DNA of 64,000 bases from positions 1 through 64,000 of the forward strand of contig CAJNOJ010000044.1 of NCBI GenBank assembly GCA_905250025.1, in the 5' to 3' direction. The stretch comes from Adineta ricciae. Its lineage: Eukaryota > Rotifera > Eurotatoria > Adinetida > Adinetidae. A model generated the notes under the pieces. It made no database searches and was not told the DNA's origin. It saw only the letters and a program-made list of their open reading frames with translations. Made by a program: the position numbers and the translations under genes. Within the stretch, counting starts at the first letter, position 1. Every line of letters begins with the position of its first letter. Positions 9,545-14,800 of this stretch are shown in pieces.

Positions 9545-10296
9545 TTGTGTCTCTTGTCGAACAATTGTTGCTGTATGATATAATGTATATTTTCGTTGTT
9601 ATTTGTTAAGAAAAAGGAGGCTCTTACATACGTCGATTCTTATGCAAAAATAATAATGAGGTGCATAAACAATTTTCTTTTTTTCGTTACTTGTTTTTCT
9701 TCTACGTCTCTCTTCTTCACAAACATTCTTTTTCATAAGTAACATTCTCCATTCAATGCCCATTTGATTGTCTATGCACATTAACTTTTTAATTATGTGT
9801 GTGTGCATGTCATCATTAGGATGAGTCAAAACATTTACGAATCGTTGTTATCAAGATGAACTGTATTGGGAATGTATGTGACGAGAACATGTCGCAAGCG
9901 AATTGAATTAATCATTCATAACGAGCTGTTATGATGTTTTTCTGTTAAGATAATCTTCTCGGATTGAATATGTCATGATGCTTTGTGCCAGACAAGGCAT
10001 CCGTACGGATGTCTTGTGAACTACATTTTGCCTGAATTTCGAATGAAAACTAAGTCGAGAATGTTTTTTATAGTGTGAAGCCGTGTGAAGTCCAGTTTGG
10101 AGAAGAATAGCTACAAGACTGAGTAAGTCATAAGACTAAGAATGGTCTGGAAGTGTTCGTTTGATTAAATATTTATTTTGATTAAAGAGAAATATTGAAT
10201 ACTTGTATTGAAAAGGAGAAAAACAAAAAGGATTCACTACACGAAACGACAAAAAAACCAAGGTAATTATGATAATAAGAGAAAAGAAGTTTCTTT
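9545..10296. other. Intergenic region
   Basis: Holds the promoter of the 129-aa gene and the 3' flank of the ATF4-like gene. A small frame at 9599-9829 on the minus strand is basic low-complexity sequence without support. No RNA gene was recognised. Confidence 0.55.
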
Positions 10297-11040
10297 TTAT
10301 TTTGATGTGGGAATTGGAATTTGTAGAACGTCTACAAACAATTGTTTGAATTGTTCTAGACGAAATGTTAGATTATCTAGCTGAAATTTTAATTCTTGAT
10401 TTTGACTTTTTAAACCAGCATGCCGCGAGACTAATTCGTCTCGCTCGGATTTTTTCTTGAGACGATATTTCTCTGCTGCGGCTTTATTTTGATCTTTCTT
10501 CCGTAGCTTGCGTTCAGTTGTTGAAAACGCTCGTTTCTTTGTCACCCGTTTCTCAATCACGGAAGAAGAACCACTTGTGGTTGAAAATACCGGTGATGGT
10601 GGAACCTCCATATCTTCCACGGCGCTCTCCGATCCAACTGTGCATTCACCACCGAGCCATGGCGATGTACTGTCATCAACTGCATAAAATGTTGATTCAT
10701 CGGAGTTGGATAGAGGCTGTAAATCGATTGTATTTGTTGGATAAGATGTGTGACTAAGGTATTTTTCGAATTGTAGATCTTCAAGTTCAGTTAAAACAGG
10801 GAAATCAAATGAGGATAAGAGGTCGTAGTTGTTTTGATTATTATCATTGTTTTCAGTTGTATTGTCTGTCGTTACTAAATTATATTCATTGGTTTCGGAT
10901 GTTATCAAAGGAAATTGGGTGTCATTCTCTTCAGTAGGAAGAACTCCGTTGGATGTGAACAGAGGATTGACTTTGACCATACCATTGGGAACGATGGTAG
11001 GAGTCATTAAGTCCGTGGGTTGATTTATTTCGAAAAGCAT
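10297..11040 (-). CDS. ATF4: ATF4/ATF5-like bZIP transcription factor, 247 aa
   Basis: A single coding exon. The C-terminus has a basic region (RKLRKKDQNKAAAEKYRLKK) that closely follows the ATF4 signature, then a leucine zipper (LVSRHAGLKSQNQELKFQL and on, about residues 195-240). The N-terminal part is acidic and Asn/Thr/Ser-rich, as expected of a transactivation domain. No clear DSGxxS phosphodegron is visible. ATF4 proteins dimerise with C/EBP and other bZIP factors and drive amino-acid, ER-stress and redox genes in the integrated stress response. The leader contains two upstream reading frames (separate entries), including one that overlaps this start out of frame, the hallmark of ATF4 translational control. 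Another CREB/ATF-like bZIP is possible, but basic region and leader together favour ATF4. It is divergent from DNAH2. Confidence 0.88.
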   Translation of the reverse strand: MLFEINQPTDLMTPTIVPNGMVKVNPLFTSNGVLPTEENDTQFPLITSETNEYNLVTTDNTTENNDNNQNNYDLLSSFDFPVLTELEDLQFEKYLSHTSYPTNTIDLQPLSNSDESTFYAVDDSTSPWLGGECTVGSESAVEDMEVPPSPVFSTTSGSSSVIEKRVTKKRAFSTTERKLRKKDQNKAAAEKYRLKKKSERDELVSRHAGLKSQNQELKFQLDNLTFRLEQFKQLFVDVLQIPIPTSK

Positions 11041-11107
11041 TTTGTTCGTTTACGTTTGAGACCGACGATGCGGAAGTTTGGGCGGCGAAAGCCATTGTAA
11101 AAGTCAT
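10931..11107 (-). CDS. uORF2 of the ATF4-like gene, 58 codons, overlapping the main start
   Basis: On the minus strand an ATG at 11107, with a second in-frame ATG at 11095 in strong context (ACAATGG), opens a frame that runs past the main ATG at 11040 and stops at TGA 10933-10931. It is out of frame with the bZIP ORF (offset 67 nt) and overlaps it by about 110 nt. In vertebrate and insect ATF4 a uORF2 of similar length overlaps the main start and blocks translation unless eIF2 is phosphorylated. The peptide itself is Ser/Gln/Asn-rich with no domain and is unlikely to matter. The uORF starts 8 nt after the predicted 3' splice site at 11116-11117. Confidence 0.82.
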   Translation of the reverse strand: MTFTMAFAAQTSASSVSNVNEQNAFRNKSTHGLNDSYHRSQWYGQSQSSVHIQRSSSY

Positions 11108-11324
11108 AGTTGCAGCTAAAACAAAATATGAGATTTATCAATTTATTCTCTACACATATCGTGGTGATTTGCAAAGGTCAATGTCCACTACTTAGGTAGA
11201 AGAAATATGTCAGTCTACTGTGGGTGTATCCTAACACGCCTCACAAATCTGGTGCACTTACTTTAAAAGGCACGCGAAAATCGTGCTAAGCCGGAGCTGG
11301 TGCGCCTAAACGGTCGCGACAGTG

Positions 11325-11339
11325 TCACACAGAACGCAT
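11325..11339 (-). CDS. uORF1 of the ATF4-like gene, 4 codons
   Basis: Upstream of the 5'-UTR intron (11261-11116; GTAAGT donor, TTTTAG acceptor) the minus strand holds ATG CGT TCT GTG TGA. Between it and uORF2 the spliced leader has no other ATG. This copies the very short permissive uORF1 of ATF4, after which ribosomes resume scanning. The predicted start site from the TATA box is only about 5-12 nt upstream, so the real cap site may lie further out or uORF1 may be partly skipped. Confidence 0.6.
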   Translation of the reverse strand: MRSV

Positions 11340-11373
11340 GATGAAAATGATGTATGATTATGAATGCTGATGA

Positions 11374-11382
11374 AATATATAG
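11374..11382 (-). promoter_or_regulatory. TATA box of the ATF4-like gene
   Basis: The minus strand reads CCTATATATTTC here, about 35-40 nt upstream of uORF1. Transcription would begin roughly at 11343-11350. No other strong TATA element is seen between this gene and DNAH2. Confidence 0.45.
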
Positions 11383-11431
11383 GATGATGAAATCGGATTT
11401 TTCTTCCTTTAGCAGGGAACATGCATATGCA

Positions 11432-11440
11432 TGATGCAAT
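11432..11440 (+). promoter_or_regulatory. ATF/C-EBP composite element (AARE/CARE type)
   Basis: TGATGCAAT is an exact match to the C/EBP-ATF response element known from CHOP (ATTGCATCA on the other strand), the site bound by ATF4 heterodimers. It lies about 55 bp upstream of the predicted TATA box. It sits inside an imperfect palindrome bounded by GGAACAT (11416-11422) and ATGTTCC (11439-11445). A role in autoregulation is inference. Confidence 0.4.
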
Positions 11441-11445
11441 GTTCC

Positions 11446-11813
11446 TGATTCATCATGACGCATTAGTTGAGAAAGAGTGATTTTTTCAAGAATATTCTCC
11501 AAAGAAAATATATGCTTTAGACATGACAGTAAGCAAAATAAATACCAAAAATAGAATTTATCGAAAATATGAGAAATTCCTGGAATAGATGTCACTAGTC
11601 ATTGTATTTCCGGGCAACATGACATAGCTTTTGATCGTATTAATAATTTCTACTGTATCGAATCGAAAAATTTCGAACAATCAACGAAATTATTAAATCA
11701 TATCTCTAACCAAACGATACGTAGAGAGGCCATCGGCCTAGTATCACATTAATCTAATTAAGACTGATACCAAGTTTTAAAACTTACTAAAGCAAGATAC
11801 TCATTGATCAACA
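11446..11813. other. Divergent promoter region, ATF4-like / DNAH2
   Basis: No gene is supported. A minus-strand frame at 11263-11595 covers part of the bZIP 5' UTR and promoter but has no family match. The stretch is AT-rich and should contain the DNAH2 promoter; no ciliary X-box motif was clearly recognised. Confidence 0.5.
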
Positions 11814-14800
11814 ATGTCTTTGGTAATTTCAACTGCATTGCTACTAAAATGTCATTTTTAAACTTTGCATAGCTTAATTATTTTCAAGACTTCATCCGAC
11901 TACCAGGATTAACGAATGACATGTGGACAGATGATCTGAAGCATATTCTAGAGACCTACCTTTCCTGTAATGAATCGAAGCTTTTGATCATGTACATTGA
12001 TCGAGATACTTCTTCTTTACAACTTCTTCATGACATTCCACTAGTGATAACCTTGAATCATTCCTCTCTTAATTTATGTTACTTTATTCGTCGGAATCAT
12101 TCGCCGGACTTGATTAACACCATCGAAGATTTTCTGAAATATATCCAATATGGATATATCATCGGACGATCGATTGCATGTTTAACAGCACTTGTATCCA
12201 CGCTTTTCGAACCATTGTTCATGAGCAACGTAGCCGTACAAGATAGTATGTCACGATAAGTTTCGATTTGTTTGAATTCTTAAATTTCAGTGATCAAAAA
12301 CGACTTTATCAGCGTATCAAATCACTTTCTAGCCACATTTTACGAAAAGCAATATCACGATACGTCGTCGATGACATATCTATACATTCCCAAAGATGGC
12401 TTAGATAGAACTGTTGAAGTGCTTATAAAAGATAGAATGTTGATAACACGATTCGAAGGTAGAATTTCTGTACTAATGGATGCCTATATTGAAATCCAGA
12501 TGTATTCTTTAGCCGTTATGCTAAAATGGCATCATCAATTGAAAAATATTCTACTCATACAGAATCGTTTGATGAGCGTTGAAGATCAGTCAACGGGTAT
12601 TGATGAAGAAATTCATTTTTGGCAAAATTGTCTTCTTAATCTTCATAATATTCGTCGACAATTCCAACGAAGTGAATTACAGACTATAATTCAGGTGTTG
12701 ACTCTCTCGAAATCTGCGTACATTGAACAATTTTTACAAGCAGGAAACGAGATTCAAGTAAAATCGCTCTTTGCTTTTCTAATTCATTCGAATGTGAAAA
12801 CAAAAACTAGATTTTCACTGGCTATGTCGAGGATTGTTTGAAATTTCTCAAACTTCTTGCTGAACCTTCACTCCAATTGAACGATATTCCTTATGAACAA
12901 CTCACTAATCTCATAACTGAGATTTTCTATCGAATCTTAATCGTATGGCATCATTCGATATTTTTCTCGATTTCCACAAGGATTAAATTAGTAATAAGTA
13001 AAGTAAATAATCAATCTTTTACTTACATTTCAATATTACGTATTTCATCTCTTATAGATTAACAATCAAATCATCAGCCGATGTTCTCGTTCGTTGAATA
13101 TACAACGCTTGTTTCAGAACTATGTTTTATCAACTCAAAACCGCCTTGAAGAATGTTTTCGGACTATCAACGTATATATTGAAACGTCTTTACATGTGAA
13201 TAGTCCTTTTCTCTATTCGGAATACCTAACTCTGTTCTTTTAGGTTTTAAATATGCATGATAGACATTCCCCTAAACCACTGATGGTCAACAACTTCGAA
13301 AAAGATGATCTTTTTCACTCTGTGCACTTGTATCAACAACGTTTAACTGAAATCAATGAAGTACAGAGATATTCTCTTCTATCTAGACACATTTTCATAC
13401 TATGCAGATTTGTGAATGCATGAAACTTTTTGGATCGTATCGAGATGGAAACAAAGATCCTTTGCCTATTTTCGGTGGGATTCAAGGTAATGAATTTCAA
13501 CATATCCTTGAACAAAGTCAACAAAATTTCGATCGAGTATTGCACTTGTTATGGCGAAAATCTATGCACATACTTGATATTTCTATGAATTCATCTTCGA
13601 TATGGTCAGAAGAATTGAAACGGTAATTTGATTGATCGATGGTAATTGATCTGATGATGTATTTCGTAGCTTTTTCAAATCTGTACGTGAAATCGAATTA
13701 GCTATTGTGAAATTGATCAACGAAGCAACGAAAAAGACAATTACAGTCGAACAAACAATGGACATTCTCGAAATCTTTATCGATTTTCAATCACGACCCG
13801 TAAATTTCATCTCAATAGTAAACCTTTTACTTCATTTGCTTCTCTTCAGACTATCAATCATGTTCTTCTCGAAAAAATTCGAGATGTCTATCGTTTATTT
13901 CTCTCTCAAATTGAAGATGTTCGCACACAAATCGCTTCGTATCAAACATTTGATGAATCAAAAGCGACGTTCAATCAATTCAATCGATTCCTACCCTATT
14001 ACTCCGCACGAGCTATGTGGATTCGCGATCAAATCGAGTGGATTACTAGAACTTATAATCTTCTGCAACAGGCATCAAACTTGCCGTATCTTGTTCAACA
14101 AAATGAAGTGAAACTTGCCTATGAGAAGTTTATAATCTTTGCTGAGAGTAGCACGAAGCGAATTTACCAAGAATGGTGGAGTATGGCGAACGAATTACAG
14201 CCGAAGAAATTGTTACAAAAGCCGTTTTTGAAGGAAAATCAGGAGAGAAAATATTTCATTGATGTTTTCTTCGATCCGCAAATCATTTTCGCATTGAACG
14301 AAAGTTTATGGTGGATTCGATTACATTATGAAATACCATATTCATTAACCGATGTTTACAATATCAGAAAATCATTTCGACAAATGACAGAAGAAACCTA
14401 CGAATTCATTCGTAAATTCAACAAGTATAACAACATGATAGATACATCATTTTTGAATAACATTTGAGAAGAACGAAACATCTATAACTATTTTCATTTT
14501 AAGGACACTCAGTTCTCTTCGTGGGCAAGAGTCTTGTCTGTTCGAAGAACATATTCGATCAGTTTTGAAAAAACTTCAACCGGCTTTACTTGGCAAAGTC
14601 AATTACACTGATGAAAATGCGTTTCATTCTTTCGCTCTCGAAGCTAATCGTATTATTAATCAAGTTCGTCCCATTGTTCAAAACTATCATGCTATCGATG
14701 AACAATTCGTTTCTTTCTGAATAGTTAACTGATCTAGTCACATCATTTAAGGAAAACTATATCAAATGTTGCACCAAATGTTTGAATATCAGTTCACAAT

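Follow-up and report, generated by a model that had tools for sequence, protein, structure and literature searches.

In human ATF4 mRNA, uORF1 is four codons long and uORF2 sixty, and twenty-seven of the latter overlap the ATF4 coding sequence; the start contexts are favourable, and ATF4 translation is described as delayed re-initiation (PMC12839439). The same paper presents data that the translation of uORF2 may not fall much upon induction; therefore, the simple delayed re-initiation model is itself under discussion. Paired ATF4 uORFs have been described across Metazoa with the exception of Nematoda, including insects, a mite, Aplysia, and Hydra, and in insects and a mite uORF2 contains a second in-frame AUG in a strong context (PMC4176352). 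The word "Rotifer" is absent from the main text of this survey. In the open-licence literature, where absence is weak evidence, no report of an ATF4 uORF switch in rotifers was found. The available text of PMC7495428, which deals with Drosophila ATF4, adds nothing decisive, and a term search of the available text of PMC12220480 finds neither ATF4 nor bZIP.

The delayed re-initiation mechanism of ATF4 and its wide spread among animals are already in print, and the rotifer case is added here. The yeast GCN4 leader is also regulated by delayed re-initiation under eIF2 phosphorylation; however, its four short uORFs, none of which overlaps the main ORF, distinguish it from the leader described below, and the likeness carries no evidence of descent. 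We describe the 5′ leader of an ATF4 gene of a bdelloid rotifer, which, judging by its sequence, is very probably built for ATF4-type delayed re-initiation.

Identity and Genomic Setting of the Gene

The window analysed is a stretch of DNA of 64,000 nucleotides, and the three gene copies compared all belong to one genome. The gene copy located in the window is designated C44, its near copy C36, and the old duplicate C53. A PDB search with the protein of the C44 main ORF returned eight sequences at E ≤ 1, and human ATF4 was the top match (1ci6_A, E = 8.5e-6). ATF4 was also the sole match named as a bZIP protein; the seven others, none of which is below E 0.089, were four CD44 sequences, two antibodies, and one uncharacterized protein. 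In the reverse search, the bZIP domain of human ATF4 was compared with the genome (130 Mb), and the three best matches were C36 (31.2 bits), C44 (31.1 bits), and C53 (27.6 bits), while the fourth-ranked match reached only 21.2 bits. The bZIP domain of C53 likewise has ATF4 as its best PDB match. Three control regions, taken from the 23 further bZIP regions listed, were compared with the PDB, and their best matches were Jun, C/EBP, and CREB.

The bZIP domain of the window gene is nearer to ATF4 than to Jun, CREB, or C/EBP. Since the match with human ATF4 is reciprocal and the control bZIP regions go to Jun, C/EBP, and CREB, the ATF4 label is specific, and sequence comparison identifies the gene as ATF4-like, in agreement with the identity proposed in an earlier reading made from the sequence alone (hereafter, the sequence-only reading).

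A frameshifted or alternative N-terminus of the protein was considered as well and ruled out, because the MLFE start is common to all three copies, whereas the uORF2 peptide is not kept.

Two neighbouring or related genes can be mentioned. A 324-aa C/EBP-like bZIP gene is located at L048 583-1557 on the minus strand; C/EBP is the family of the ATF4 partner in PDB entry 1ci6. A dynein heavy chain gene is found at positions 11921-12838 of the plus strand of the window (DHC_N1, 1.2e-11, on 12371-12838) and points away from the ATF4 gene. The two genes are divergent; therefore, the region upstream may be common to both.

The GC content of the window is 34–38% in 4-kb steps. For Adineta ricciae, a GC content of 35.6% and mean Ks values of 0.135 for homologs and 1.27 for ohnologs have been reported, and the corresponding mean Ks values of A. 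vaga are 0.05 and 0.61 (PMC5916493). By its GC content and by the distances between gene copies given below, the present genome fits A. ricciae. The window matches the contig of C36 at 94% across 30.9 kb in a single piece. With C53, it has protein-coding stretches in common, largely in the same order among the tblastn matches listed.

Architecture of the Leader

The features of the C44 gene are listed in Table 1 in the direction of transcription.

Table 1. Features of the ATF4-like gene in the window (C44) and of its 5′ leader.
Feature	Position	Strand	Description
Candidate splice acceptor (CAG), possible SL site	11367..11369	−	27 nt ahead of uORF1 (C44, C36); 12/17 pyrimidines
uORF1	11339-11325	−	4 codons, MRSV
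Exon stretch from uORF1 to the intron	11262..11324	−	ATG-free, alignable to C53; possible 5-bp hairpin near its end
5′-UTR intron (inferred)	11261-11116	−	146 nt, GT-AG, AAA|GTAAGT ... TTTTAG|CTGC; separates uORF1 and uORF2
uORF2	11107-10931	−	58 codons, frame +1 relative to the main ORF, 110 nt overlap with the main ORF
Second in-frame ATG of uORF2 (codon 5)	11093..11095	−	A at −3, G at +4; also present in C53, ACG in C36
Main ORF	11040-10297	−	247 codons, ATF4-like bZIP protein, intronless in C44; PF00170, 6.8e-9
bZIP domain within the main ORF	10336..10512	−	

The sequence-only reading had placed uORF1 and uORF2 and had described an out-of-frame overlap with the main start of about 110 nt; these coordinates are exact base for base. 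It had also stated that no other ATG lies between the two uORFs. This holds for the spliced leader but not for the unspliced one, because an ATG (11157) lies inside the intron. Another ATG, at 11095, is located within uORF2 and in its frame. The intron, which we deduced from splice signals common to C44, C36, and C53, thus determines whether the statement is true, and given this putative splice there is no further uORF between uORF1 and uORF2. The C36 intron likewise contains one ATG, and the C53 intron contains none.

In C44, each of the three start codons (uORF1, uORF2, main ORF) has A at position −3. The very short first uORF has this good start context in C36 and C53 as well; the main ATG of C53, with C at −3, is in a weaker one. 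After splicing, the distance from the stop of uORF1 to the start of uORF2 would be 71 nt in C44 and 77 nt in C53. The distance from the start of uORF2 to the main ATG is 67 nt in C44 and C36 and 82 nt in C53. The nearest ATG on the 5′ side of uORF1 is 83 nt away in C44 and C36 and 115 nt away in C53, and more ATGs are located beyond. One far-upstream ATG of C44 and C36 opens a 66-codon ORF that reads through uORF1, provided that the transcript starts that far up. These upstream ATGs, which the sequence-only reading does not mention, and the weaker main start of C53 weigh against delayed re-initiation.

The dimensions are similar to those of the mammalian ATF4 leader: 4 and 58 codons with an overlap of about 36 codons in C44, and a second uORF of 49 codons with an overlap of 68 nt in C53. 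The rotifer gene has a putative intron between uORF1 and uORF2; the comparison with the mammalian leader covers the uORFs. As in the metazoan leaders surveyed in PMC4176352, a short first uORF is followed by a long second one that needs to be bypassed. The second in-frame AUG reported there for uORF2 of insects and a mite has a counterpart in C44 and C53, whereas C36 differs in having lost it.

The exon stretch between uORF1 and the intron aligns to C53 better than the flanking leader does, as judged by eye, and a possible small hairpin precedes the splice donor. When this stretch is folded alone, a hairpin with a stem of 5 bp and a loop of 7 nt appears at similar positions in C44 and C53, too few sequences for a firm claim; in the fold of the whole leader, it is present in C44 and absent in C53. 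An Rfam search of window positions 10000-12000 and a Pfam search with the uORF2 peptide, both at E ≤ 1, gave no matches.

Retention of the Layout in the Other Copies

Three ATF4-like copies were found in the genome, and the layout is kept in all of them. A degenerate tetraploid could carry four ATF4 copies; one may have been lost, or may be collapsed or missing in the assembly.

The C36 protein is 93% identical to that of C44, and the C53 protein is 48% identical. The distance at four-fold sites is 0.10 between C44 and C36 (10 of 105 sites) and 1.58 between C44 and C53, where 27 of 41 sites differ and the value is near-saturated. The paired-uORF layout thus persists in a copy at near-saturated synonymous distance, as well as in the close one. 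The case of orthologues without an overlapping uORF, which the sequence-only reading had raised against itself, did not occur in either C36 or C53. Within this genome, conservation therefore extends to both the near copy and the old duplicate.

uORF1 consists of four codons in every copy and encodes MRST in C36 and MILI in C53 in place of MRSV. When uORF1 of C44 is compared with that of C53, all three bases of the ATG are kept, while only three of nine bases are kept in the body and one of three in the stop codon (TGA versus TAG). uORF2 has 58 codons in C36 and 49 in C53, overlaps the main start by 110 and 68 nt, respectively, and is always in frame +1. The intron signals are found in the same place in all copies, and the C53 intron is shorter (53 nt). 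What is kept is the start, the length class, the frame, and a stop; the peptides have changed. This fits the act of translation mattering and the peptide not.

The C53 copy also has a 58-nt intron inside its coding sequence (L010 2135-2192), which can be deduced from the reading frame and is found in neither C44 nor C36. Apparently, this intron was gained or lost since the duplication.

Possible Trans-Splicing and the 5′ End of the mRNA

A 23-mer that we take to be the bdelloid spliced leader (SL) was used as a query against the genome. It gave 46 matches with three or fewer mismatches, and the reversed control gave none. One identical 23-mer (TGCTTATTACAACTTACCAAGAG), which differs from the query at the first base only, accounts for 41 of the 46 matches. 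In each of the three loci read out of the 46, GT follows directly. Bdelloid SL RNA genes, as far as this query identifies them, and duplicate blocks at two depths are thus both present in this genome, and the genes matching the 23-mer bear out the rotifer origin suggested earlier. Many of the SL loci (L035, L037, L040, and others) are arranged as opposed pairs, with starts about 150 nt apart.

PMC1925144 cites a spliced leader of 23 nt that is reported to be carried by over half of the transcripts in bdelloids. Such a leader could be joined to the ATF4 transcript at one of two places. The candidate acceptor upstream of uORF1 listed in Table 1 has a counterpart in C53, located 8 nt before uORF1; its 14 of 17 pyrimidines are the highest count among the eight YAG sites listed for the C53 leader. 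If the SL were joined there, just before uORF1 in each copy, uORF1 would be kept and every listed upstream ATG would be removed. If it were joined at the downstream acceptor 11116, uORF1 would be dropped. It is a tentative and rather doubtful suggestion, made from the positions of these acceptors, that the SL sets the 5′ end of ATF4 mRNA and that the choice of the trans-splice site decides between a stress-inducible and a simply repressed mRNA.

Alternative Explanations

The alternative that survives best starts from the same downstream acceptor. If the SL were joined at 11116 in most mRNAs, uORF1 would be absent from them, and uORF2 alone would act as a standing brake, which leaky scanning instead of delayed re-initiation would relieve. 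The SL genes of this genome, the reported frequency of SL-bearing transcripts, and the 12 of 17 pyrimidines ahead of acceptor 11116 are all consistent with such joining. However, all three copies retain a donor that matches this acceptor, located 146 nt upstream of it (53 nt in C53), and therefore cis-splicing is favoured; moreover, the retention of a four-codon uORF1 at near-saturated distance would be left unexplained. We regard joining at 11116 as improbable.

It can also be supposed that the leader, being AT-rich, simply contains upstream ATGs of the ordinary kind, and that the uORFs have no regulatory role. To describe the pattern, the full layout was defined as a first uORF of 2–6 codons followed only by the ATGs of one overlapping out-of-frame uORF. 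Among 20,000 dinucleotide shuffles per leader, an out-of-frame overlapping uORF alone was found in 36% for C44 and 32% for C53, which agrees with this supposition; the full layout, in contrast, was found in 281 shuffles for C44 (1.4%) and 445 for C53 (2.2%). Since an overlapping uORF is frequent in shuffled leaders, the strength of the case rests on retention in the duplicate. Only C53 is a clean independent test, because the pattern was defined after C44 had been seen.

Retention was evaluated in a neutral simulation, in which the C44 leader was evolved without indels with the C53 main ORF attached, with 20,000 runs per distance. uORF1 was kept in place together with the full layout in 0.72% of the runs at d = 0.5, in 0.14% at 0.8, and in 0.075% at 1.0. 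At d = 1.27 this outcome was found in 7 of 20,000 runs (0.035%), and at d = 1.58 in 2 of 20,000 (0.01%). A layout made of any ATGs arises in 2.0–2.7% of the neutral runs.

As a small and weak empirical control, four possible starts were compared in unspliced sequence. They were hand-picked from 66 pairs of window and C53 sequence anchored on Met, many of which represent a Met inside an ORF or the same ORF repeatedly. An overlapping out-of-frame uORF was found in three of the four window copies and in one of the four C53 copies, which again speaks for ordinary upstream ATGs. However, none of these four hand-picked pairs had such a uORF in both copies, and no pair shared the paired layout. For the C/EBP-like gene, 300 unspliced nt contain one uORF, of 6 codons, and overlapping uORFs are absent. 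Given how rarely the full layout arises in shuffles and how rarely it stays in place in neutral runs at d of 1.27 and 1.58, chance is a highly improbable explanation of the leader.

Least credible of all is dual coding, in which uORF2 would encode a working peptide whose product matters: uORF2 of C44 and C36 is 91% identical, and C44 and C53 both have M at codons 1 and 5 and then AFA, but all six codons that differ between C44 and C36 (of 58) alter the residue, the C53 peptide diverges past the opening residues and ends earlier, and a search of the genome with uORF2 recovered C44 and C36 and not C53.

Proposed Mechanism

Delayed re-initiation, the reading preferred here, would operate as follows. 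Ribosomes would translate the four-codon uORF1, after which part of the small subunits would remain on the mRNA and keep scanning. When the ternary complex is plentiful, they would start again at uORF2, about 71 nt downstream, cross the main start in the other frame, and ATF4 would not be made. When eIF2 is phosphorylated, the ternary complex would be re-acquired slowly, uORF2 would be bypassed, and translation would start at the ATF4 ATG 67 nt later. Transcription through uORF1, splicing, translation, and the stress response are all elements that we infer from the sequence.

The genome encodes eIF2-alpha (L042), containing the segment MILLSELSRRRIRS, which we take to be the segment that holds the phosphorylated serine. 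The eIF2-alpha family (PF07541) has three matches at two places in the genome. A single profile of the GCN2 C-terminal domain (PF12745) gave no matches in the genome, and its controls were equally silent. W2 domains (PF02020), which may belong to 5MP, eIF5, or other proteins, gave 13 matches.

Implications

The paired-uORF ATF4 switch would be extended by this leader to rotifers, a group unnamed in the main text of PMC4176352, and the general picture is unchanged. Both halves of an old duplication keep the layout while the peptides have drifted, which makes them a natural experiment on the essentials of the leader. If the SL does set the 5′ end of the mRNA, the choice of the trans-splice site would add another level of control to the ATF4 switch.

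Two bZIP genes of A. vaga, one of them a likely C/EBP, are reported to be over-expressed in the common response to rehydration and radiation (PMC10809525). A term search of the main text of that paper finds neither ATF4 nor eIF2. With the rotifer ATF4 leader, it can be asked in concrete terms whether the integrated stress response is used by animals that tolerate drying.
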